Shown here one piece after another: positions 361-20,197 of a DNA stretch of 32,781 nucleotides. Source of the stretch: Deltaproteobacteria bacterium. GTDB lineage: Bacteria > Desulfobacterota > Dissulfuribacteria > Dissulfuribacterales > QOAL01. A program made the position numbers and the translations under genes. The stretch covers positions 1-32,781 of the forward strand of contig JALSNW010000034.1 of NCBI GenBank assembly GCA_026986785.1, read 5' to 3'. The notes beneath the pieces were generated by a model. The model was not told the DNA's origin, made no database searches, and saw only the letters and a program-made list of their open reading frames with translations. Position 1 is the first letter of the stretch. The number at the start of each line of letters is the position of its first letter.

Positions 361-389
361 TTTACAAGTTGAATAGCTTGTAATAGTAT
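361..389 (+). promoter_or_regulatory. Sigma-70-type promoter with operator-like inverted repeat in the spacer
   Basis: A -35 box TTTACA (361-366) and a -10 box TAGTAT (384-389) are separated by exactly 17 bp. A perfect 7-bp inverted repeat, TTACAAG (362-368) and CTTGTAA (377-383) with an 8-nt centre, fills the spacer and overlaps the -35 box, the usual position of a repressor operator. Transcription would start near 396 and run into the SatD-like gene at 447. It is read from sequence only. Confidence 0.5.
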
Positions 390-446
390 ATTTAAAGTGT
401 TTTAGCTTGTTTTTATGGGAGTTTTGGCTCTGTCATTGGGGATATT

Positions 447-1139
447 ATGTTAACCAAAAGAGATGAGTCCCTGTTTGTCGTTGTGACAGGGGATATTATT
501 GGCTCAACAAGGCTTTCTGGCAAGGCCAGGAGGCGTCTTCTCCAGGTGATGAAGGCAGGTTCAAAGGATGTTAGAATTGCCTTTGGCCGTTCTGTACCTT
601 TTGAAGTAGATGTCTTCAGGGGGGACAGTTGGCAGCTTCTGATCACTCAACCCAGAGATTGCCTGGATGTAGCCCTTTATTACAGGTGTCTAATCAGGGC
701 GGGTATGAGCCCTTTGAGGATAGATACCAGGCTTTCCATAGCCATAGGTGATGTTGATCTCATGCCTGGAGACCGGGTCTCTCAAGGTGATGGTGAGGCA
801 TACAGGCTTTCAGGTAGAGGGCTCGAAGGTTTGAAAGGCCATCAAAGGATGATATTTTCCTTTCCATCAAGGCTTGAAGATGAAGGGTTAAGGGCAATAA
901 GGGCCTTGGTGCTCTTGATTGACGCCCTTTTTGTAAGGTGGACGCCAAAGCAAGCAGAGGCAGTTAAATGGGTTCTCAAAGGGGTTAGGCAGGAAGAGAT
1001 TGCAGCCAACTGGCCCACAGGACCTATTTCCCAACAGGCAGTTGCCCAGCATTTGACAAAGGCTGGGTGGTATAACCTGTCAAAGGGCCTAGAATACGCA
1101 AGAAATGTACTCTCGCGATTACAACCTCTACCGCTTTAA
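447..1139 (+). CDS. SatD-family protein (cyclase-like N-terminal domain plus C-terminal HTH)
   Basis: This 230-residue cytosolic protein has no signal peptide or membrane segment. Residues 8-21 (LFVVVTGDIIGSTR) and the later FRGDSWQ (57-63) match the SatD family pattern of a beta strand ending in GDI-x-x-S followed by a GDEFQ-like turn. Both elements also resemble the two metal-binding acidic sites of class III nucleotide cyclase/GGDEF palm domains (D16 and D60 here). Residues about 170-225 look like a helix-turn-helix: a long helix with AEAVKWVLKG, then QEEIAANW and SQQAVAQHLTKAGW. GGGGA-like sequence lies 5-6 nt before the ATG. It is followed 49 bp downstream by a DUF3307 membrane protein, the usual SatD neighbour (satD/satE of streptococci). 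The biochemical function of the family is not established; the cyclase resemblance is my inference from motifs. Confidence 0.7.
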   Translation: MLTKRDESLFVVVTGDIIGSTRLSGKARRRLLQVMKAGSKDVRIAFGRSVPFEVDVFRGDSWQLLITQPRDCLDVALYYRCLIRAGMSPLRIDTRLSIAIGDVDLMPGDRVSQGDGEAYRLSGRGLEGLKGHQRMIFSFPSRLEDEGLRAIRALVLLIDALFVRWTPKQAEAVKWVLKGVRQEEIAANWPTGPISQQAVAQHLTKAGWYNLSKGLEYARNVLSRLQPLPL

Positions 1140-1188
1140 ATGACAATATTATAAAGCCAATATGCCAGGAACATAGGACTGATTCGTT

Positions 1189-1950
1189 GTGAAAAACCCT
1201 TATATAGAACTCTTTATATGCCTGTTATTTGCCCATATTGTGGGGGATTTTCTCCTTCAGACATCAGATGACGTAAAAAACAAATATAGGCCTTCTGTGC
1301 TATCCAAACATTCTGCAATCACAGGGGCCATGTCCTATATATTCTGTGGTATCTGGAAGATGTGGCCCTTGGCTCTTGCCGTGTTTGTGAGCCATTTTTT
1401 CATAGACTATATGAAGGTGAAGTTGAACAGGAATATTGAAGAGAGACAGATCCATATCTTCCTTGTAGATCAAGTGGCCCATATCTTTATCCTGGCTCTG
1501 ATCGTCAATGTCCTTATTGCCCTCTATTCACCTCTTGTCCAGGACATATGGTGGGTCAAGATCTTTGGTATGTGGTATTTGAGGATCGTGATATTCATAG
1601 GTGGATTCATCCTAACGGTAAGGGCGGGGGCCATGGCCATGGAAATGGCAGTAAGGCCATTTCTCATCCAGTTGAAAGATGCCCCTTCAAATCACCCAAA
1701 GGGGCTCAAAAATGGTGGTAGATTCATTGGTCAATTAGAGAGGGCCTTGATATTTCTCTTTGTCATGGCAGGGCAGCCCAGTGCCATAGGTTTTCTCATT
1801 GCTGCAAAATCCATCCTTCGTTTTGGCGATATTAAGGACGGTGCACACCGAATGGAGGCAGAATATATCATCATTGGTACACTGATGAGTTTTCTTTTGG
1901 GACTCTTGATCGCCTATGGGGCAAGGCTCTTGATGCTTTTTTGTAAATAG
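1189..1950 (+). CDS. DUF3307 family polytopic membrane protein
   Basis: This 253-residue protein has about six hydrophobic segments (roughly 6-24, 44-70, 89-112, 125-147, 180-205 and 222-250). It carries the DUF3307 signatures: AHIVGDFLLQ (15-24), SHFFIDYMK (68-76) and FLVDQVAHI (91-99). The longer form also has a conserved C-terminal part with GQLERALIFLFVMAGQPSA and AAKSILRFGDI. The His/Asp residues H16, D20, H41, H69, D73, D94 and H98 lie in or next to membrane segments and could bind a metal; that is inference. The start is GTG at 1189, with AGGA-type sequence upstream. It follows the SatD-like gene in the same orientation and is probably cotranscribed. DUF3307 has no established biochemical activity. 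Confidence 0.75.
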   Translation: MKNPYIELFICLLFAHIVGDFLLQTSDDVKNKYRPSVLSKHSAITGAMSYIFCGIWKMWPLALAVFVSHFFIDYMKVKLNRNIEERQIHIFLVDQVAHIFILALIVNVLIALYSPLVQDIWWVKIFGMWYLRIVIFIGGFILTVRAGAMAMEMAVRPFLIQLKDAPSNHPKGLKNGGRFIGQLERALIFLFVMAGQPSAIGFLIAAKSILRFGDIKDGAHRMEAEYIIIGTLMSFLLGLLIAYGARLLMLFCK

Positions 1951-1980: not shown

Positions 1981-2025
1981 AAGCTGTGAGGCTTAACCTA
2001 TCTCACAGTGCCTGACCCACAGCTT
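1981..2025. terminator. Possible hairpin terminator between convergent genes
   Basis: AAGCTGTG (1981-1988) is perfectly complementary to CACAGCTT (2018-2025), and nested CTGTGAG (1984-1990) pairs with CTCACAG (2002-2008), giving two alternative stems. The site lies between the DUF3307 stop codon and the stop codon of the convergent secreted-protein gene. There is no T-tract on either strand, so intrinsic termination is uncertain. Confidence 0.3.
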
Positions 2026-3485
2026 TAAGGAATAGTGAATCTTTCTATATTTAGAATAGTGCCATTTATGTTCATAGTTGCGTGGGATGAATCAATGAAG
2101 TCTATTGTAATATCTCCTGCCTCGCCGGGTATCATCTTGGGTTTTTTGTAGCGGTAGCAAAAATAACACTGGCCGTTTCGCCACCCATCCAAGACCCCTG
2201 TATAGGTTGGGGCTCCATCTGGAAAATTGCCGATAGATGTCCACCACCGGGGCTCACCGTTTTCTCCATAGTTATACCAAACGAGAGCCATCTTTTCGCC
2301 CCTTGCCTCTATGAAAAGTCCCATACCATTGTAGGCAGGATCGTACCACCATCCAGTAAGATTACGTGAATCTGGGGCGCCATGCGCAAAGTTTTCCATG
2401 AAAGACACAAGATTCTTGGTTGTAAACGGCAAGGCAAGGGAAAACTTATTATATACGTAAAAATCCATAGAGTCATCGTGGACAAGATTACCGTAATGAA
2501 ATTTTACATCGATTCTACAAACCGACTCCGATATAGTGGGTTCTTCGTATGCTTGGCCCCATTGCCATCCCCTCCATTTTTGTGCTCTGCAAGACAACCA
2601 ATTATCTTCTGTCACATTGCCGCTGCACGTTACCCAGATCGTGGCATTGGTTTCATCGCCGTAGCCATCGTCTTTATTAAAACTGAACCACACGAGAAAT
2701 GCCTTCCGTCCCTGGATCTCTAAAGCAACACCGTTTCCTGGTTTGCTTTTCTCGAACCACAGGCCTGTAAAGTGCTCCTGAAAGTCTGGAGGCAGCCTTT
2801 TAGTAATGGGCCCAGGTCTGGCAGCGTAGACAACAAAATTGTCTATAGCAAGGGTTGTATTTCCTGGATCATTTGAATATAGACGAACTTCTATTGTGTA
2901 GACATCCGACATGGTCTCACTAAAGGACGGACAGGAAGGTTCTTGTTCCCAGCCTGCTGCCTTTGCCTCGGCATCGCTCCATCGAGGATTGAACGGTACG
3001 TCAAAATGTACCCAACTACTTATGGGAAGCAGAGAAACGCGTAAGGGTTGCCCTGTATATGTCAAGCGATAATACCAACCATTATAGTGGGCATCATGAT
3101 ACCTGGCACGGAATACCACTCGGTTGGCCTGTCCAGAAACCAACATGAGATCGAAAGAGACCTGATTGACGCCTGCTGCCGTATAATTACCTGTATATCT
3201 ATCTTCATCTGTTAGGGCACCTATGATATTGGCTGGATTACCAGTAGGCTTACTGGTCGATGAAAGATAGCCTCCAGGATTCCCACCAGAAGTCACCACT
3301 GATACTTGTGTCCAAGCCGTATTGCCTTTCCAACCGTGGAGCCTCATGTCGTCCCAGTTGTCACTCGTGGCAATTGCAGCGAACAACTCGCTATTACTAC
3401 CTATCAATAAGATAAAAACAAAGAACAGATACTTGTATATTGCTTTCATCATCATCCCATCTGGAGAAAACAAGTTTATTTTCAT
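2025..3485 (-). CDS. Secreted protein of unknown function with laminin-B/CBM-like region and two W/G-rich beta repeats
   Basis: This 486-residue protein is exported: a signal peptide spans about residues 11-37 (MMMKAIYKYLF, hydrophobic core, cleavage near LFAA). The true start may therefore be the ATG at 3455, ten codons inside. Residues about 38-225 resemble a secreted beta-sandwich binding domain, with DNWDDMRLHGW near the front and LAIDNFVVYAAR at the end. Two repeats follow: the first opens GLWFEKSKPGNGVALEIQG (about 241) and the second GWWYDPAYNGMGLFIEARG (about 375). Each continues into a VWF/VWY strand and a tryptophan-rich hairpin. This repeat type occurs in extracellular proteins of proteobacteria; I know no function for it. 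No sorting signal or membrane anchor is seen. The gene stands alone between candidate mobile-element ends and has no functional partner nearby. Confidence 0.65.
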   Translation of the reverse strand: MKINLFSPDGMMMKAIYKYLFFVFILLIGSNSELFAAIATSDNWDDMRLHGWKGNTAWTQVSVVTSGGNPGGYLSSTSKPTGNPANIIGALTDEDRYTGNYTAAGVNQVSFDLMLVSGQANRVVFRARYHDAHYNGWYYRLTYTGQPLRVSLLPISSWVHFDVPFNPRWSDAEAKAAGWEQEPSCPSFSETMSDVYTIEVRLYSNDPGNTTLAIDNFVVYAARPGPITKRLPPDFQEHFTGLWFEKSKPGNGVALEIQGRKAFLVWFSFNKDDGYGDETNATIWVTCSGNVTEDNWLSCRAQKWRGWQWGQAYEEPTISESVCRIDVKFHYGNLVHDDSMDFYVYNKFSLALPFTTKNLVSFMENFAHGAPDSRNLTGWWYDPAYNGMGLFIEARGEKMALVWYNYGENGEPRWWTSIGNFPDGAPTYTGVLDGWRNGQCYFCYRYKKPKMIPGEAGDITIDFIDSSHATMNINGTILNIERFTIP

Positions 3486-10740: not shown

Positions 10741-13299
10741 ATGGTCAAGACCTGTCTAAAAACTTCACGTAGGAGAGTTTTACCATCACTTCCTGTGGTG
10801 GTTTTCAGGTTGATCAAGGTTACAGAAGACGAAACGAGATCTCTGATAAACCTTGCTGAGCTAGCGGGTAAGGATCCAGTCCTTTCTTCTCAGATTCTAA
10901 AACTTGCCAATTCCCCTTTGATGAATACGGGAAGGCCGGTTAGGTCTCTATCCCAGGCTGCTCTCAATCTTGGGACTTCAACAATTCGCAATCTGGCAAT
11001 TACAGTGGCGGTGTGTCAGTCATTTGCCAGGTTGGAGGTGCCTGGTAATTTTTCCATCTCTGCGTTTTGGAATCATAGCCTTTCCTGCGCGATCATCGCC
11101 AAACTACTTGCTGAACACTCTATGGATACTGCCCCCGAGGAGGCCTTTGTCGCAGGCCTTCTCCACGACATCGGACAACTCGCCTTGGTTGTCAGAGATC
11201 CTGACAAGTTTGAAAAAATCGTCCAAAATCCCCACACTGGACAGACCATTCTTGAATCGGAGAGACAGGCCTGGGGGCTGGATCATGCCCAAGAAGGCTA
11301 TAGGTTGTTGAAGGACTGGGGTATTCATCAGAATATCCTGGACTGTGTAAGATATCATCATCGAGACGCCAAGGAGATAGCATTGTCTTCCGAGGTTGTT
11401 CGCATAGTTTTTCTTGCAGATCTCTTTAGCCATTTTGGTAGTGGTGGTTCCAGTCTTGATATACAACAATTCTATCAAATGCTTGATCAATTTGCCCTCA
11501 AGGCTGGCCCTGAAGGTTTGGAAGGGCTTTTAAAGAGGGCGCGTTCTGAGATAAAGACGGCCAGCAATGAATTAGGTCTCAATGTGGCAACCAGCAAGGC
11601 CGAGGCAAAGATTCCCAGAATCGATGCAAGGGCTAAAGAAGATCAGGTACTTTTGGCAGACAAGGCCCTTGACCTGGCTGTCCTGACAGGCACACTTGAT
11701 TCTCTGTTGGCAGTGTCCAGCCAGGATCAATTGAAGAGCCAGATTTTTTCCTCTATAGGTATCCTGACTGATTCTCAAACAGCCATTTTTTTCCTTAAGA
11801 AGAAACAATCTCTTGTAGGTCTTTATGCAAAGGGTACGAGGGATGACAGCCTGGTAAATCAGATTCACATCTTGGGCCTGGACGATTCCATCTGGGAGGA
11901 GGCCTTTCGTACCGCCTTGCCCATTCATTCCCATCTCTTTTTCAAGAGACATAAGATGAGGATCATCGATGAACAGATCAGGGATTATGTAGGTGGGGAC
12001 TTCCTCGTGGTGCCTGTATTTGCCTGGGGCAGGGCAGAGGGGGCCTTGGTGCTGTCCATGTCTTGGGATTCCTGGGTTGAACTCGAGCCAGGAAAGGAAC
12101 TGTTGATGCTGCTGGCACGGCAGATTGGGCATGTCTACGAGGGATTGAGATATCGTAGGCTGTGGGAAAAAGAACACCTGATAAATGATATAATTGTAAA
12201 AAAGAGTTCTGTCGGTATTGTCTTGACCACTTATTCTGGTGAGACAATATCGTGTAATCCTTCTGCACGTGCCTTTTTGGGTATAAATGGGACTGGCTTC
12301 AGGGACTTGAATATTTTTGATTTCCTGGGGCTCGATGACAAGAACACCAATTCCTTGCTGGGAGAGGTGACTCCAGGAAAGAGTCAGAATCTTGGCAGAT
12401 TCAGGATAGATGTTCAAGATAATAGGCCTGTATGGCTTGAAGTAGAGGTGGCACCTGTCTCGATCTCTGGGCTCGATCGATTGCTATTTTTGATAAGGGA
12501 TGTAACAGCCGAGGTTGCCTTGGATTTGGAGAGGAAGAATAGGGCAATCTGGTTGGAGAAAGAGCTTACCAAAAAGACAGAGGAGCTACGAAAGGCACAG
12601 GAGAAACTGATTCAGGCCGAGCGGTTGGGTGCCACCAGCCAATTGGCAAGAAAAGTGGTGCATGAAGTCAATAATCCCCTTGGGATAATAAAGAATTTTT
12701 TAAAGATTTTGAAAATACAAAAGGAAACCGGTGAAATAGATGACAAGACCATCGATGCAATAAGCTCAGAGATAGATAGGGTGGCTCGTCTCTTGAGGCA
12801 GCTTGGCAATTTTGCCAGTGCTCAGCATGGACAAGATATGTCTGGCTCTGCATCTATTGATTCTGTCGTGCGAGAATTGGAGCTCCTCATGAAGAAGACA
12901 TTGGCGGAGAAAGGGGTCAGCCTTGAGACAGAGATCGAAAAGGGCCTTCCTTCAGTAAAGATGTCGCCAGATAACCTGAAACAGGTCCTTGTCAACCTGA
13001 TAAAAAATGCCGATGAGGCCTTGGAAGGTCCTGGAAGGATTCTTGTCAGAGCATTTCAACAAGACGGTGATTCCAAATACGTCCTGTTAGAGGTAGCAGA
13101 TACTGGGCCGGGGATCCCCAAGCAGATTCGCGAAAAGGTCTTTGATCCCTTCACCACTACCAAAGGGGCTGACAATGCAGGACTTGGTCTATCGGTGTGC
13201 TATGGGCTTGTCAATGCCTGTGGCGGAGAAATAATCCTTAGTCAGGAGGAGGGGTTTAATACTGTAGTAAGAATCAGGCTTCCAATAGCATTGGGTTAA
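10741..13299 (+). CDS. HDOD-GAF-PAS sensor histidine kinase
   Basis: This is an 852-residue cytosolic fusion. An HDOD domain occupies about 10-210 (ILKLANSPLMN near 53; FVAGLLHDIGQLALV near 137-151; a later YHHR). A GAF-like region spans about 300-465 and a PAS domain about 480-600 (GIVLTTYSGETISCNPSAR). A short coiled coil leads to a HisKA domain with the phospho-acceptor H641 (VVHEVNNPLGIIKNF). The ATPase domain (about 730-850) has the N box NLIKNADEAL, G1 DTGPGIP and G2 GLGLSVCYG. There are no membrane segments, so the input is intracellular. The start is poorly marked: no ribosome binding site is seen and an in-frame stop lies about 25 nt upstream. A hybrid kinase follows after 18 bp, so the two probably form one phosphorelay. 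Confidence 0.9.
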   Translation: MVKTCLKTSRRRVLPSLPVVVFRLIKVTEDETRSLINLAELAGKDPVLSSQILKLANSPLMNTGRPVRSLSQAALNLGTSTIRNLAITVAVCQSFARLEVPGNFSISAFWNHSLSCAIIAKLLAEHSMDTAPEEAFVAGLLHDIGQLALVVRDPDKFEKIVQNPHTGQTILESERQAWGLDHAQEGYRLLKDWGIHQNILDCVRYHHRDAKEIALSSEVVRIVFLADLFSHFGSGGSSLDIQQFYQMLDQFALKAGPEGLEGLLKRARSEIKTASNELGLNVATSKAEAKIPRIDARAKEDQVLLADKALDLAVLTGTLDSLLAVSSQDQLKSQIFSSIGILTDSQTAIFFLKKKQSLVGLYAKGTRDDSLVNQIHILGLDDSIWEEAFRTALPIHSHLFFKRHKMRIIDEQIRDYVGGDFLVVPVFAWGRAEGALVLSMSWDSWVELEPGKELLMLLARQIGHVYEGLRYRRLWEKEHLINDIIVKKSSVGIVLTTYSGETISCNPSARAFLGINGTGFRDLNIFDFLGLDDKNTNSLLGEVTPGKSQNLGRFRIDVQDNRPVWLEVEVAPVSISGLDRLLFLIRDVTAEVALDLERKNRAIWLEKELTKKTEELRKAQEKLIQAERLGATSQLARKVVHEVNNPLGIIKNFLKILKIQKETGEIDDKTIDAISSEIDRVARLLRQLGNFASAQHGQDMSGSASIDSVVRELELLMKKTLAEKGVSLETEIEKGLPSVKMSPDNLKQVLVNLIKNADEALEGPGRILVRAFQQDGDSKYVLLEVADTGPGIPKQIREKVFDPFTTTKGADNAGLGLSVCYGLVNACGGEIILSQEEGFNTVVRIRLPIALG

Positions 13300-13317
13300 A
13301 GGGAAAGGGATAGAGGC

Positions 13318-15192
13318 ATGTCTTTGGCTTCCGCAACGGTATTGGTAATAGATGATGAACAAGAGATGAGAAATAGCCTAAGTGTGCTATTGACCCATGC
13401 TGGCTTTATTGCCACTACCGCAGCAAGTGTGGGAGAGGGACTGAATCTTCTGAGTAACAATTTTTATGATGTGGTGATCACCGATTTCTTCCTGCCTGAC
13501 GGGACGGGTTCTGACATTATGGAATATTGCAGAGACTATTGTCCCAAGACCAGGGTGATCGTAATGACAGGATATGCCTCCCTTGAGACTGCGGTTCAGG
13601 CATTGAGGCTTGGCGCCTTCGATTATGTGATTAAACCCTTTGATTTCGATCTCCTTTACCATTCCCTTCAACGTGCCCTTGAACATATTCGCATGATGGA
13701 TGAGATAGCCCTGGCAAAAGAGAGATATAGGGCCCTTATAGAGGATTTGAATGAAGGCTATATGATAATCAAGGAGGGTTATATCCATTATGCCAATACA
13801 AAAATGGCAGATATCCTCAACTGTAGATTGGATGAACTTCTTCAAAGGCCTGTACTAAGTTTCGTGGATTATGGCCATCAGCAGGTATTGAGAGAGAAGA
13901 TGAAGATTCTCGAAAATTCGCCTGGGGCCTTTTTCTTGGAAGAGGTGGTCTTGAGGGACTGCAAGGGCAATACTGTGCCGGCAGAATTGAGAATGACCAA
14001 TACCATAGGGGAACATCTGGACAGTGGTGTAATTCTCATATGTCGGGAAATCACGGAACGCGACGTATTGTGGAATAGGTTGGTGAGGGCAGAGCGTCTT
14101 GCAACAATGGGGGAGATGATGGCTGCTGTTGCTCATGAACTCAATAACAAGCTCACTCCAATACTTGGATACTCAGAGATACTCAGTGCGGATCTTGCCA
14201 AGGAACAGCTTGAAAAGGGGATCGAGGGGATACGTAGCGCTTCCCTCAGTGCCCAGAAGATAGTAAATTCCCTCCTGCTATTTTCCAGGAGGGAAAAGCC
14301 TGCAAAGATCAGGTGCAACGTTAACGATATCGTCAAAAATGCATGTAACATGGTGAGGACCTGGATAGGAACCTCTAAGATAGAGATAGATCTCGATCTG
14401 AATGATTCTCTCTCAGCCGTCATGGCAGATCCCCATCAGTTGGAGCAGGTGATAACGAACCTTCTGAAGAATTCTGTGGATGCCTTGGAGGCCAAGGGTG
14501 GATTGATCCGCATAAACACTTCCTTCGACAACAGAAACGTGGTCATAACGGTCATGGACAATGGTCCTGGGATTCCGCCAGAGATAATAAAGAATATATT
14601 TGATCCCTTCTTTAGCACCAAACAGGACAAAAACGGTACAGGACTTGGCCTAAGTATCTGTCATGGAATAATCAAGGAACATGGTGGAGATATTAAAGTC
14701 TCTTCTCGAAGTGGCAAGACAACCTTCACCTTGATACTCCCTGCCATCGAGTCCATGAACGAAAGCTTTGTACAGGCAACGGATTCGAGTGCGGTCGATG
14801 TGAAATTTGAGAGTCGGCCCCGGGTGTTGGTAGTGGACGATGAGTACGAGATCTCTGAATTGATCCTGGAGGTATTTTCAGATACATTTCACGCCGTTTC
14901 GGCCTCGAATGGTCTTGAGGCCTTGGATCGAATAAAACAACACCATTTCGACGTGATAGTCTCCGATCTAAAGATGCCAGAGCTCAATGGTATAGAGATG
15001 TACAAGAGACTGTTGAAAGAATACCCGGAGTACGAGGGTAAGATTGTTTTTACTACTGGTATCGTTTCAGATCTTGAGACCCAGGAATTTCTTCAGAGAA
15101 ACAATCTCCCTTATCTCAGAAAACCATTCAAGATGAAAGAACTCTTTGGGGCAGTAAGCCGTATCATCGAGAAGCAGTCCAAGATCAATTGA
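13318..15192 (+). CDS. Hybrid signalling protein: REC-PAS-HisKA-HATPase-REC
   Basis: This 624-residue soluble protein has an N-terminal receiver (about 7-120; acidic pair D12/D13, phospho-site D56 in [14 protein letters not shown], and K in VIKPFD). A PAS domain follows (about 138-245). The HisKA domain has H273 ([17 protein letters not shown]) and the ATPase domain has [17 protein letters not shown] and [11 protein letters not shown]. The C-terminal receiver (about 498-615) has phospho-site D550 ([11 protein letters not shown]) and LRKPFK. All catalytic residues are intact. It has no DNA-binding or other output domain, so it probably relays phosphate between the adjacent HDOD-kinase and an unlinked target. 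Its 3' end overlaps the convergent M48 gene by 8 bp. Confidence 0.9.
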
Positions 15193-16999
15193 TCTGTTTT
15201 GTTCCCCCTGGCTCCTTCAATGCCTTTTTGAATCTTTCCACCTGGCTTTTGTAGTAATCCCGGTTTTCATGCGCCTTACGAAACGCATCTTGTTCTACTT
15301 CGATTGCCCGTGCCACATAACCATTTGCAAAGAAGCATTCGGCTAGGGTATCCAAGATGAAGGGTTCAGGTCTGAGCTTTGCCGCTTTCATGGCAAGGAG
15401 AAGGGCCTTTTGGGGATGTATGAATGCAGGATCGTCGGATTTTACATAGAGCCATGCCAGATTGTTGAGGGCCTCTGCACTATTTGGCTCCATATTCAAG
15501 ACCTTTTTATATGCGAGTTCAGCCGCTTTGTACTTTTTTTGTTCAAAGGCTATTTCTCCAAGCAAGAGGTAGAATCTTGGGTCTCTATCGCCTTTCTGGA
15601 CGAGTTTTTCATAGTAGAGTTGAAGGACGTTGGAGTGGGCCTTTTTCTTCCAGGTCTTCGTGGGGAGGCTGGAGGGCAATATCAACAGTATACACGTCAG
15701 GGTAATAAAGATCCCCCTTGACACATTCAGCTTGTGGCTATGCTCAGCCAAGAGTTTTGGTTCAAGGTAGGCACGTCTTAGAAAGTCTATCCTTTCCGAG
15801 ATACTGTAGTGATGCCAGTTGGGTTTTTGAGGGTCTATACCAGAAAGTAGGGCGACCTTTTTCAGGGCATTTATCAAAAAGAAGGGATGTCCATGGATCT
15901 CAAAGGCGGCCATATCGGCCTGCCTTTCAAAATTCCTCATGAAATAACCCATGAGGAATCTGAAATAGACTATGATCAAGATGCCAACGGGAAGGGCGGT
16001 TAAGAGCGAGACAAGAGAGTCTGGGAATTCATCAGCAACCAGGAGTATCTTCAATATGGCAGGGGTGGACAATAGCCACGTAATGAATGGATCTCCAAGT
16101 CTGTATATTATCGCAGAATAGCTAAGTAGGAATATCACATACCAGAGTATGTGTTTCCTTCTTACATGCTCGATTTCATGGGCGATGACTGCCTCTATCT
16201 CTTCTGGCTGCAGATATCTTATAAGGCAGGGAGTGAGAAGGATATATCGGAAGCCTGGCACTAACCCCATTACAGCAGCAGTGCAGGCCATGGTCTCCCC
16301 GGTATGCCAGACCATGATGCCTGAGAAGGACATTTTCTGTCTTTTCAGTATATGTTCTATCCTCTGGCGCAGATCCGAGTTTGGAAGGGGGGTGCATCTC
16401 CAGAGTTTCATTATCAAGGGTGGCAGAACAAAGAGGAAAAACAACAGAAAAAGCAAGAGAAAGACGGCTGGGGCATAGTCGGAATGAAGCCATTGTCTCA
16501 AAAATGGGAAGGGTAGCTTCTCCAGCAGATCGATGAGAACTATCAGGACGAAATATGGGAATACCACTGGCAACAACAGCCTGAGCCTTGAATACACAGT
16601 ATTGTTTAATAATGGCCTTTCCCCTTGCTCCTTGAGGCCGGTCGACCACACCACGGTCAGATAGAATAGGAAGAGAAGGAGTGCCAGTATCTCTTTCAAG
16701 GATTCTAATCCAAAGAACGAGGATATCTTGAAAAACAGTAGGTTGGCATCCAAGAAATAGATATCGATTATAAAAGGGAAAAGGGCAGCCCATTCCCACA
16801 GCCCTATGCTGCTGAACCTGCCCCTGCCCCCTTTTTCCCCTTTTTTAAAGGCCATAAGGCAAAGTAGATACCAGCCGCCAGCCTTTAATATCCACAACAA
16901 CAATTCAACTGCGGGGACAAGTTGTCCAGTGGGCCTTTCTGGCGCACTGCTCACCAGTATTAGGGCTATCATTATTTCAAGTATCAATCCGTAAGGCAT
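15185..16999 (-). CDS. M48 family membrane metallopeptidase with C-terminal TPR domain
   Basis: This 604-residue inner-membrane protein has several N-terminal membrane segments (about 3-18, 31-50, 68-88, 103-119, 140-160, 178-197) and a catalytic HtpX/Ste24-type domain. The zinc motif is HEIEH (274-278, in AVIAHEIEHVRRKH), and the third ligand is the Glu of NFERQADMAAFEI. Further membrane segments occur near 285-350 and about 428-445. The tail (about 460-590) has TPR-like helices, with AYKKVLNMEPNSAEALNNLAW as the clearest unit. The presumed role is membrane-protein quality control or processing, with the TPRs recruiting partners. It is convergent with the hybrid kinase gene and divergent from the small membrane-protein gene. 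Confidence 0.85.
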   Translation of the reverse strand: MPYGLILEIMIALILVSSAPERPTGQLVPAVELLLWILKAGGWYLLCLMAFKKGEKGGRGRFSSIGLWEWAALFPFIIDIYFLDANLLFFKISSFFGLESLKEILALLLFLFYLTVVWSTGLKEQGERPLLNNTVYSRLRLLLPVVFPYFVLIVLIDLLEKLPFPFLRQWLHSDYAPAVFLLLFLLFFLFVLPPLIMKLWRCTPLPNSDLRQRIEHILKRQKMSFSGIMVWHTGETMACTAAVMGLVPGFRYILLTPCLIRYLQPEEIEAVIAHEIEHVRRKHILWYVIFLLSYSAIIYRLGDPFITWLLSTPAILKILLVADEFPDSLVSLLTALPVGILIIVYFRFLMGYFMRNFERQADMAAFEIHGHPFFLINALKKVALLSGIDPQKPNWHHYSISERIDFLRRAYLEPKLLAEHSHKLNVSRGIFITLTCILLILPSSLPTKTWKKKAHSNVLQLYYEKLVQKGDRDPRFYLLLGEIAFEQKKYKAAELAYKKVLNMEPNSAEALNNLAWLYVKSDDPAFIHPQKALLLAMKAAKLRPEPFILDTLAECFFANGYVARAIEVEQDAFRKAHENRDYYKSQVERFKKALKEPGGTKQIN

Positions 17000-17131
17000 A
17001 GGCCTGATTCTATCACCGGCAATGAGAAGTTTCTATTCAAAAAGTCAATAAAAAAGCTCAATTAGGAAATAGCCCGGCATATACTTCACCAGTCCGTTAT
17101 TTGTGTCGATAAGTTACCAAGGAGGATAGAA

Positions 17132-17458
17132 ATGTTTGTAGATATAGACTGGGATGCCATTGCCGAGGCCCTAAGGACAGAAAATCTCATAAAATATTTC
17201 TCCACGACCGATCCTATGGCCATCTTGGGAGATCCCCGTTTTTGGGTGTCAGCCCTCTTGATTTGTATTGTCCTTTACTTTTTGAAATTTCGAAAGGTCT
17301 TGTCCTTTCTTGTGGGGGCAGTGATCCTTTGGTCAGCCTGTTTCTATATATTGCCCAAGAACGGGAAGCTGGAGTTGAGGGATATAGCAGTCTTTGGCAG
17401 TGTCTTCGTAAGTGTTTTGGGATTTTGGATCTACATGTTCCTTCTACGGTCTGATTAA
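17132..17458 (+). CDS. Small membrane protein of unknown function
   Basis: This 108-residue protein is supported by a strong AGGAGG ribosome binding site 7 nt before the ATG. It has a short soluble N-terminus (about 1-35, with DIDWDAIAEAL) and three hydrophobic segments (about 36-49, 54-72, 85-105). I do not recognise the family. It ends 3 nt before the membrane-anchored HDOD gene and is almost certainly cotranscribed and perhaps translationally coupled with it, so a partnership at the membrane is plausible. Confidence 0.75.
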   Translation: MFVDIDWDAIAEALRTENLIKYFSTTDPMAILGDPRFWVSALLICIVLYFLKFRKVLSFLVGAVILWSACFYILPKNGKLELRDIAVFGSVFVSVLGFWIYMFLLRSD

Positions 17459-17461
17459 CTG

Positions 17462-18622
17462 GTGTCTTCATCGATGGATTTGTCCATGTTCTGGCTTCTG
17501 ATCCTATGTGTGGTAGCTGTTTTGGCTCTTGGGGTCATATTATTTTTTTTCCTGGGCAAAAAGGAGAGTACAGGCTCTTCCAACGGCCAAGCCAGTGCCT
17601 TTTCAGATGAAGAGGGGCCCTTGGAGGAACAGGCCTTTTTGCCAACCACGGTCTCTTCTTCACCCCATGAGCCTGAGGCAGAGGAGGTGGTTTTCATAGA
17701 CGTATCTCACCTGGAAAGGCCGAGTCCAGAAAGACCCATAACAGATGAGGATGCAGCACTAATAGACATAATTCGTCAATCCCCAGAATTGCCAAGTGCA
17801 ATCATGGAGCTATCCCAAATGCTTAGGGATCCTGAAGCTAACATCAGAAGGGTTGTGGAGTTGATAAGTACTGATCCCGTATTGTCGGCAAAGGTGTTGA
17901 GGGTAGTCAATTCTGCCGCCTATGGCCAATTAAGGGTGACTTCTCTTCAACAGGCCGTGGTGCTCCTTGGATTCAATAATGTGTGGCTCTTGGTGACCCA
18001 AATGCTGACCTCTTCCGCAGTCAAGCCCTTTGCGGAACTGGATCAGCAGGAGATCAAGGCACTTTGGCGTCATGCGGCTGCTGCCTCGGTGTGTGCAAGG
18101 CATTTGCTATTTTTCACAGGGATGACCACCAGCCAAATTGGTCCTACAGTCTTTACCTGTTCCTTGCTCCATGACGTTGGAAAGTTTTTGTTGAAAGGGC
18201 TTGGAGGAGGTCAGGAACACATGGACAAGGAACAGCCATGTGAGACCTTTTCAGTGCTTGAAGAGGAACAGGTCTATGGTCTCGATCATTGTAGGATGGG
18301 ATATCTGCTTTCAACCTACTGGAAACTCCCAGAACTCATATGTACAACCATAGGCTATCACCATCATCCCTCCTTTGGCAATTGGCATGAAGTCCCGAGA
18401 CATGCCAGAAAGACAGTGGCCTTTGTGGCCTTGAGTGATTTCCTTGCGAAAAAGACCAACTATTGGGATGAATCCCCCTGTGGATTCAATATATCTCAAG
18501 ATGCCTTGGAGTTTATAGGGCTTGACAAACCAGGTTCCATAAATAAGCTGCTCACCAAGGAATTGAAGCGTGATCTTCGACAGACGGAGGCACTGATTGA
18601 AGCAGCAGCAAAAAGGGTGTGA
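17462..18622 (+). CDS. Membrane-anchored HDOD domain protein
   Basis: This 386-residue protein has an N-terminal membrane segment (about 9-29, ending FFFLGKKE) and then an acidic, Ser/Pro-rich linker (about 30-95). An HDOD domain follows (about 105-310) with ELPSAIMELSQML, VLRVVNSAAYGQLR and the HD motif LLHDVGKFLL. GYHHHPS lies in the C-terminal part. The start is GTG at 17462 or the ATG at 17474; neither has a clear ribosome binding site, so translation may depend on coupling with the preceding gene. A membrane tether on an HDOD protein is uncommon; most are soluble. It overlaps the glycosylase gene by 26 bp. Confidence 0.85.
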   Translation: MSSSMDLSMFWLLILCVVAVLALGVILFFFLGKKESTGSSNGQASAFSDEEGPLEEQAFLPTTVSSSPHEPEAEEVVFIDVSHLERPSPERPITDEDAALIDIIRQSPELPSAIMELSQMLRDPEANIRRVVELISTDPVLSAKVLRVVNSAAYGQLRVTSLQQAVVLLGFNNVWLLVTQMLTSSAVKPFAELDQQEIKALWRHAAAASVCARHLLFFTGMTTSQIGPTVFTCSLLHDVGKFLLKGLGGGQEHMDKEQPCETFSVLEEEQVYGLDHCRMGYLLSTYWKLPELICTTIGYHHHPSFGNWHEVPRHARKTVAFVALSDFLAKKTNYWDESPCGFNISQDALEFIGLDKPGSINKLLTKELKRDLRQTEALIEAAAKRV

Positions 18623-19307
18623 CAGGGCATATCTAAGAAAATTGGAAGGTCTCCACCCAGGAACTCGGCATACAGAGTATCTTTTTTCCCTGTTTTGGCT
18701 TTTGTATGACAGCTTTGGACCTCAGTACTGGTGGCCGGGCCAGACCCCTTTCGAGGTGGCAGTGGGGGCTATCCTCACCCAGAATACCACATGGAAAAAT
18801 GTGGAAAAGGCTATAGCCAACCTCAAGTCTCACAGGTGTCTATCTCCATTTGCCATCTTGGAGATGGCCGATTACGAGCTTGCCGAGCTCTTGAGGCCGG
18901 CGGGTTATTATAACATCAAGACGGGCAGGCTGAAGAATTTTGTAAAGGTCTTGCTTGAGGATTTCGGCGGCGATATGGGGCAAATGGCCCAGGTCGAGGA
19001 TGGCCTGATAAGACGACGCCTGTTGGAGATAAAAGGCATTGGGCCAGAGACCGCAGACAGTATTATGCTCTATGCCCTCGAGAAACCATCATTCGTGGTA
19101 GACGCCTATACCTTCAGAATCCTTCAAAGACACGACATGATAGATTCGTCTTGGGATTATGAAATGTTGAGGGGCTTTTTTATGGACAATCTGCCAATTG
19201 ATGTCTGTCTATTCAATGAATTTCATGCCCTCATAGTCATGGCTGGCAAGAGCTTTTGTAAAGCCAGAAAGCCAAAATGTGACCAATGTCCCATCAGGGC
19301 TACCTGA
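18597..19307 (+). CDS. Endonuclease III-like HhH-GPD DNA glycosylase (MagIII-type)
   Basis: This 236-residue protein starts at TTG 18597. The start is decided by GGAGG at 18586-18590, 6 nt upstream and inside the previous gene. Family motifs are WWPGQTPFEVAVGAILTQNT (about 44-63), the helix-hairpin-helix LLEIKGIGPETADSIMLYAL (about 140-159) and the catalytic Asp in FVVDAYTFRI. The Lys that gives EndoIII its lyase activity is Glu here (GPETA instead of GRKTA), so a monofunctional base-excision glycosylase for alkylated bases is likely. The C-terminal iron-sulfur loop has only three cysteines, C-x6-C-x2-C followed by PIRAT and then a UGA stop, exactly where the fourth Cys of C-x6-C-x2-C-x5-C should be. 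See findings. Confidence 0.85.
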   Translation: MKQQQKGCDRAYLRKLEGLHPGTRHTEYLFSLFWLLYDSFGPQYWWPGQTPFEVAVGAILTQNTTWKNVEKAIANLKSHRCLSPFAILEMADYELAELLRPAGYYNIKTGRLKNFVKVLLEDFGGDMGQMAQVEDGLIRRRLLEIKGIGPETADSIMLYALEKPSFVVDAYTFRILQRHDMIDSSWDYEMLRGFFMDNLPIDVCLFNEFHALIVMAGKSFCKARKPKCDQCPIRAT

Positions 19308-19324
19308 GATATTTATTCATACTC

Positions 19325-20197
19325 TCAGTCCATTATCATATTCAACAGCTTTTCAGCCTCATAGAAGCTTGTTATTGCATGGTCCATGCACCAATAATAG
19401 TCTTCTTGTCCACATCCGGCTGCTTTCAATAGTGCTGGACTTATGTGATACCTGAAGCCATCTGTACCTACTCCAAAGCCGAGCTGTATGCTCATGATGT
19501 TGCTGAGCGCTAAACAGGCTGACAGTCTATCTTGGATGTATAGATCAGGGTCATGATGATTTCTGACAGCCCTACAGATATCTGGTGGGAAATCCCAATT
19601 GGTGAGGATTGCAGCACCAGCTACGGCATGATCGGTCCCGAGCACGCTCCACTCGGCCTCTGAAAAGCTGTTTCCACGTTGTTTGGAGATCATCAGTACC
19701 TCTCCAAGCCTTGGCCCTACGTAAATGTCCAAAACGATCTTTCCAATATCGTGCAGGATCGCAGTGGTGAAGAGTGTAGAACTGTCAGTGAAGCCTATAC
19801 GTTTACTGATTACACCAGAGACCACGGCACAGCTCATCGAATGCAACCACAGGTCTTCTGGGGCCATTTCATAGCCGGACAATGGTCGGCTCAGATATGG
19901 CATGGCAGCACCTGCCACCAGGACCTCCCTGATTTTTTGATTGCCGAGTAGGGCAAGGGCCGTATCAAGATCTGTCACTTGTTGTCTCAAGCCAAAGATG
20001 GCCGAGTTGGTGAGTTTGAGGATATTGGCCACAAGGCCTTGGTCGAATTTTATTATTTCAGACACATCCGAGATCTTTTTCTTGGGATCATCGAGTACCT
20101 GGAGGGCCTTGTGGACCACCTTGGGGAACACTGGCAGGTCTGCCATGGATTCGAAGACAGCATCCAGTGTAAAATTTGGAGTAGAGACCGCAATCAT
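19325..20197 (-). CDS. HDOD domain protein
   Basis: This 290-residue soluble protein is essentially one HDOD domain. It has LPVFPKVVHKALQVLDDP (about 18-35), ILKLTNSAIFGLR (about 59-71), an HD motif TAILHDIGKIVLDI (about 145-158) and NHHDP near 217. The start is supported by AAGGAG about 8 nt upstream. The start overlaps the stop of the CheD-like gene in an ATGA arrangement, so the two are translationally coupled and probably work together. HDOD proteins act in chemotaxis, stress and type IV pilus regulation in other proteobacteria, but the biochemical activity of the domain is not well defined. It is the third HDOD protein within 10 kb. Confidence 0.88.
   Translation of the reverse strand: MIAVSTPNFTLDAVFESMADLPVFPKVVHKALQVLDDPKKKISDVSEIIKFDQGLVANILKLTNSAIFGLRQQVTDLDTALALLGNQKIREVLVAGAAMPYLSRPLSGYEMAPEDLWLHSMSCAVVSGVISKRIGFTDSSTLFTTAILHDIGKIVLDIYVGPRLGEVLMISKQRGNSFSEAEWSVLGTDHAVAGAAILTNWDFPPDICRAVRNHHDPDLYIQDRLSACLALSNIMSIQLGFGVGTDGFRYHISPALLKAAGCGQEDYYWCMDHAITSFYEAEKLLNMIMD

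Follow-up and report, generated by a model that had tools for sequence, protein, structure and literature searches.

Near one end of the window, by which we mean the whole 32,781-nucleotide stretch analysed here on contig C34 of a 2.59-Mb genome, a gene for a SatD-like protein is followed, 49 bases downstream of its open reading frame, by the gene of a membrane partner. A sequence-only reading had proposed that the two proteins could form a nucleotide-signalling or sensing unit with a membrane effector, and the locus raises the question of what the SatD-like protein is related to, whether the two genes belong together, and what the pair might do. A check of the sequence confirmed both open reading frames, and found D16 and D60 of the first where that reading had placed them (Table 1). 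Its module start at position 361 proved to be the beginning of a promoter-like and palindromic stretch and not of the gene, which starts at 447. Full-text literature searches yielded no paper giving SatD or DUF3307 a fold or describing the pair; as most subscription journals lie outside the literature searched, the novelty is provisional. With a cyclase-fold assignment, two specific metal residues and a delimited partner module, the function of the pair becomes directly testable.

Table 1. Features of the SatD-like gene pair and its upstream region, in window coordinates
Feature	Position	Strand	Basis
Candidate operator: promoter-like TTTACA-17-TAGTAT (361-389) under palindrome TTACAAG-8-CTTGTAA (362-383)	361..410	+	
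TAGCTTGT direct repeat, part of candidate operator	374-381, 403-410	+	
SatD-like protein, 230 aa, ATG start	447..1139	+	ORF; family alignments; profile link to Pfam SatD members
Class III cyclase-like N-terminal domain (predicted), aa 1-145	447..881	+	AlphaFold2 model, Foldseek, hhalign to cyclases
D16, predicted first metal-binding Asp, VTGDIIGS	492..494	+	24/24 in family; falls on cyclase FADI Asp
D60, predicted second metal-binding Asp, FRGDSWQ (RGD turn)	624..626	+	22/24 in family
C-terminal helix-turn-helix, about aa 165-225	939..1121	+	HTH matches (family members; PDB HTH regulators); Q169 in 23/24
Polytopic membrane partner, 253 aa, GTG start	1189..1950	+	ORF; hydropathy; adjacency to SatD-like genes
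Partner N-half, Pfam DUF3307, residues 8-113	1210..1527	+	Pfam E 1.3e-16; conserved residues
Partner C-half, unnamed module, SatD-linked part	1585..1938	+	Conservation; stand-alone copies beside SatD-like genes

The SatD-like protein and its relation to class III cyclases

Queried on its own against Pfam, NCBIfam, PHROGs, PADLOC and the PDB sequences, the window SatD-like protein gave no match, and the Pfam SatD model (PF16264) leaves it unmatched at E values up to 1. Profile comparison, on the other hand, aligned the window clade with the Pfam-SatD members at an hhalign probability of 99.7% (E 3.6e-26, 199 columns), and two of the relatives match Pfam SatD themselves (L042, 2.7e-32; L022, 6.1e-19). 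Because of this profile link we regard the window protein as a member of the SatD superfamily that lies beyond the reach of the Pfam model, whose entry names no activity. The SatD label of the sequence-only reading thus stands by profile comparison, though not by a direct match. The relatives were drawn from genomes of the window's phylum, one further genome contig, plasmids and one viral contig, and they come from Desulfobacterota-type genomes, Alpha- and Gammaproteobacteria, Bacteroidota and haloarchaea, their identity ranging from about 19 to 67%. The Desulfobacterota-type label rests on one relative, Thermodesulfatator. The distribution of the relatives is patchy: 395 genomes of the window's phylum gave about 13 clear matches. 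A search of 118 phylum genomes with PF16264 gave no match and, having been run without a positive control, has no bearing on absence.

The relation of the N-terminal domain to cyclases was examined with a family alignment of 24 SatD-like members and a comparison set of 22 true class III cyclase domains. Aligned with hhalign, the two profiles gave a probability of 82.5 (P 1e-5) with both metal aspartates in register, while 40 column shuffles gave at most 0.5% and a reversed control 0.4%; with the SatD-like N-domain alone the probability was 90.5, and all controls stayed below 2%. The breadth of the alignment matters for this link, since small sub-clades score weakly by themselves (58% for the window clade, 7% for the Pfam-SatD clade). 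D16 and D60, which had been singled out from the sequence, are indeed conserved, in 24/24 and 22/24 of the SatD-like proteins. They lie 44 residues apart in the window protein, the spacing measured in 22/22 class III cyclases, and 40–44 residues apart across the family. Run against genomes, the SatD-like profile recruited at E 1.9e-4 a protein (L031) that is Guanylate_cyc by Pfam (1.8e-18). The N-terminal PDB matches at E 0.07–0.2 are the class III cyclases Ma1120 and Rv1900c, below significance, and no direct Pfam cyclase match was obtained for the window protein.

Structure prediction points the same way. A first AlphaFold model, at pLDDT 51, was too weak on its own; a second AlphaFold2 model of the N-domain, built from three sequences, has a mean pLDDT of 67 and about 80 over residues 10–100. 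The models predict the order β-α-β-β-α-β over residues 9–102, and Foldseek ranked a class III cyclase first for both of them, at E of about 1e-3. VIA-align placed cyclases at Z 7–8, tied with other ferredoxin-like folds, and so does not separate between them. Taken together, the sequence comparisons and Foldseek make it very probable that the N-terminal domain has a cyclase-family fold, and the palm-like fold anticipated in the sequence-only reading is what the models predict.

That reading had named class III cyclases and GGDEF domains in one breath. The resemblance to class III is borne out by the profile alignment, the Guanylate_cyc match, Foldseek and the 44-residue spacing, and the resemblance to GGDEF is weaker. 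A GGDEF-type domain that makes or senses a dinucleotide would account for an hhalign probability of 44 (P 2e-4), in which RGDEF is placed on GGDEF, and for the GGDEF chains present in the structure match lists. We nevertheless consider it highly improbable, for the score falls short of that of class III with the whole family, the top Foldseek ranks are held by class III cyclases, and the spacing of the aspartates is theirs.

Whether the cyclase-like domain is active is a separate matter. The SatD-like proteins share with class III cyclases (PF00211; Rv1900c, Ma1120, Cya2) the palm order, as predicted by the models, and the pair of metal aspartates, and 19/24 have Arg or Lys at the place of the transition-state Arg. 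They differ from class III cyclases in that they lack both the base-specifying Lys and the transition-state Asn, RGD replaces K-x-x-GD, and an HTH is fused to the domain. The place aligned with the adenine-specifying Lys holds V56 in the window protein, and that aligned with the Asn is variable among the SatD-like proteins. According to the available text of PMC4886424, the Asn is absent from some class III enzymes, and the DUF2652 nucleotide cyclase-like proteins offer a precedent of an unnamed family reassigned to class III, partly without this Asn; they are a separate family of mostly single-domain cytosolic proteins, for which that text notes no HTH. With both residues missing, the SatD-like protein has in our estimate slightly less than an even chance of being catalytically active; in part of the family, activity appears likely. 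As neither residue is conserved, nucleotide signalling with a membrane effector, the central proposal of the sequence-only reading, is kept here as an inference.

The C-terminal HTH that had been recognised in the sequence is supported from two sides: several Pfam HTH families are matched weakly by SatD-like members, and region 156–205 of the family profile finds HTH transcription factors among the PDB sequences, with E of about 0.01.

The membrane partner and its pairing with SatD-like genes

The partner is polytopic by hydropathy, which agrees with the earlier description of a many-pass membrane protein rich in His and Asp. Its N-half is covered by DUF3307 (PF11750; phrog_2470), with a match of 61.2 bits against a curated cut-off of 23. 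Nine His, Asp and Gln residues of this half (H16, D20, Q24, H41, H69, D73, D94, Q95 and H98) are conserved in 13–14 of 14 full-length partners and form the set HxxxDxxxQ / H / HxxxDxxK / DQxxH, a pattern that looks like an intramembrane metal site. The C-half has a signature of its own, G177-x2-I180-G181-x2-E184-R185...K207...R211-F212...E225-Y226...G230-T231, in which G177, I180, G181, E184, K207, R211, Y226 and G230 are found in 18/18. A Pfam search of two stand-alone copies of the C-half gave no match, and nothing in the partner matched a cyclic-nucleotide-binding domain.

The pairing of the two genes is recurrent. An adjacent partner was found for 7 of the 13 clear SatD-like matches in the 395 phylum genomes and in 10/10 plasmid records retrieved by the window SatD-like protein; the pair also occurs in pEC34A, a Klebsiella plasmid, Halorientalis, Haloplanus, a lambdoid prophage contig and Desulfobacterota-type genomes. 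In one genome (G244) the SatD-like and partner matches lie on different contigs, near contig ends. The pair recurs, more than by chance, at loci down to 20–30% protein identity, and in many loci the two genes overlap or almost touch. A mirror-tree comparison over 18 loci gave r 0.84 against a permutation maximum of 0.40; the two proteins co-evolve. We conclude that the SatD-like gene and its partner are very probably a functional two-gene unit.

The linkage resides in the C-half of the partner. At five loci (L005, L012, L022, L024 and L026) the partner lacks the N-half and is the C-half by itself, and no SatD-like neighbour was found within about 1.5 kb of DUF3307 genes that lack the C-half (G059, G337, G208, G252, G036, G077, G135). 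Three C-half matches (G319, G299, G188) are without a SatD-like neighbour; two of these are short fragments. The expectation that SatD and DUF3307 would recur together thus held for the pairing but not for DUF3307, since it is the unnamed C-half that the SatD linkage tracks.

Five SatD-like genes of the window's phylum (L003, L021, L023, L025, L027) lack a partner in the adjoining 1.5 kb or so. Two of these proteins, L023 and L025, carry Ser or His in place of D60 and are possible non-catalytic regulators; L003 and L021 keep both aspartates and yet stand without a partner.

Genomic context and possible modes of action

Many copies of the pair lie on mobile DNA. Two are the main cargo of tiny ColE1-type plasmids, pEC34A of E. 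coli (L040) and a Klebsiella plasmid (L041); pEC34A, at 3770 bp, contains rop, mobA, one small hypothetical gene and the pair. Among 5,426 complete E. coli genomes, none held the pEC34A pair, and a search of complete E. coli genomes for both enterobacterial pairs found neither. On the lambdoid contig (L105), the CII, O and P genes precede the pair. No relative turned up on viral contigs when the query was the window protein or its close alignment, the Sphingomonas protein, or the partner alignment; the one relative on a viral contig was found only by the Enterobacter-clade alignment, and phage records searched with two queries gave no SatD-like match.

Some copies have defence genes as neighbours. 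On the Sphingomonas insulae plasmid NZ_CP048421.1 the pair is located between PycC-E2-PycTM and ThsB/GajB/GajA (Pycsar, Gabija). In Enterobacter kobei, GajA and GajB are found 2.2 kb upstream of the pair with an IS3 transposase between them and the pair, and in Haloplanus AbiEi lies about 5 kb away. These are individual loci taken without a background rate, and the flanks of the window, Salinivibrio and Natronosalvus hold no defence genes by annotation. From this context, a role of the pair in defence or conflict has, in our estimate, about even odds.

Among known systems, the pair invites comparison with Pycsar (PycC cyclase with a PycTM or PycTIR effector), which likewise places a cyclase-fold protein next to a membrane protein on mobile DNA and to which one copy of the SatD pair is adjacent. 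The SatD pair differs from Pycsar in that it has no match to PycC, PycTM or a cyclic-nucleotide receptor, and its cyclase-like protein has an HTH; the PADLOC PycC and Pyc effector models match neither the window pair nor the S. insulae pair.

The same context bears on a more ordinary explanation, namely that the SatD-like protein is a one-component regulator with a dead ligand pocket, whose HTH would control a single downstream gene, for a membrane transporter or enzyme that serves in acid or ion stress. Three observations would fit: streptococcal sat genes have been tied to acid tolerance (PMC11323703), certain loci are set amid housekeeping genes (Salinivibrio), and D60 is lost in L023 and L025. 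The patchy distribution in the phylum, the carriage on plasmids, in prophage and in defence islands, and the strong conservation of both aspartates in paired loci argue against it, and we consider this explanation improbable.

The HTH directs attention to the region upstream of the pair. The window palindrome alone is not significant (p 0.11), and palindromes with p at most 0.02 lie upstream at L007, L011, L012, L013, L042 and L043. The same box recurs upstream in L012, L013 and L042/L043 and looks like an operator; in L011 the palindrome precedes a T-run and could be a terminator. Autoregulation of the cassette is suggested by the HTH together with the upstream palindromes, and on these sequence features we hold it to be fairly likely.

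We favour, with a probability of roughly 40%, the reading of the locus as a mobile, co-inherited cassette in which an autoregulated cyclase-fold/HTH protein controls a membrane effector, probably in defence. The N-half of the SatD-like protein would be a diverged class III cyclase palm that binds a nucleoside triphosphate via metal on D16 and D60 and that, in all probability, produces or senses a nucleotide signal; the HTH of the protein would repress the cassette's own promoter. The C-terminal module of the partner would take the signal from, or touch, the SatD-like protein, and the effector function would lie in the DUF3307 half, an optional intramembrane His/Asp site. Upon infection or stress, the SatD-like domain would change state, the promoter would be relieved and the membrane protein would act, most likely against phages or mobile elements, much as Pycsar does. 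The parts of this scheme that we infer are the catalysis or binding of nucleotide and the repression by the SatD-like protein, the effector activity of the partner, and the role in defence.

We prefer the Pycsar-like cassette to a toxin-antitoxin-like pair, in which a toxic membrane protein would be restrained by the SatD-like protein through HTH repression and perhaps contact, the pocket would sense a nucleotide, and the pair would persist since loss of the first gene alone would be lethal. The regulator-first order with overlapping or touching genes, the HTH with its upstream palindromes, and the presence on tiny plasmids and in a lambdoid prophage would all suit such a pair. It gains weight from satD of Streptococcus pyogenes, which a transposon-sequencing study reports to be essential although only about 71% of genomes carry it (PMC11323703); an essential yet accessory gene is what one would expect of an antitoxin or restrainer, an indirect hint. 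However, the near-invariant metal aspartates are left unexplained by toxin-antitoxin action alone. Also against it, Kremer reportedly found in 2001 that all five sat genes of S. mutans could be disrupted. We hold this explanation, the main rival, to be rather less likely than not. The Pycsar-like and toxin-antitoxin-like readings both predict a harmful membrane protein; what separates them is whether active D16/D60 sets off the harm or holds it back.

In a broader and more tentative form, SatD proteins might be an unrecognised branch of class III cyclases with a DNA-binding domain, which together with the C-half module would form a conflict system, widespread in bacteria, haloarchaea, plasmids and prophage and in mechanism between Pycsar and toxin-antitoxin, a nucleotide signal or its loss releasing an intramembrane effector. 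If the pair is a conflict system, it is one that is absent from PADLOC-DB 2.0 and extends to archaea and to 3.8-kb plasmids.

Other genes near the pair

The S. insulae segment (L044:9192-20464) is a compact defence island that contains PycC-E2-PycTM, the pair with an 80-aa ORF, an HTH gene with ImmA/IrrE, a ThsB-like TIR gene and GajB/GajA. Downstream of the pair in E. kobei is a 1286-aa DUF4365 protein without a PADLOC match (L130:18383-22240). An ABC-F-type ATPase gene lies near the pair at three loci (L007, L008, L014), in Pseudoalteromonas as judged by eye and in Salinivibrio by annotation. In the window itself, the reverse strand encodes at 2025-3485 a secreted-looking protein of 486 aa with a repeated GxWxxP/GLWYD-type motif, which Pfam assigns to no family at E values of up to 0.1. 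Farther on, the ORF list shows by eye look-alikes of HDOD-domain, histidine-kinase and response-regulator proteins within 10 kb (10741-20197), in the ORFs at 10741-13299, 13318-15192, 17462-18622 and 19325-20197.
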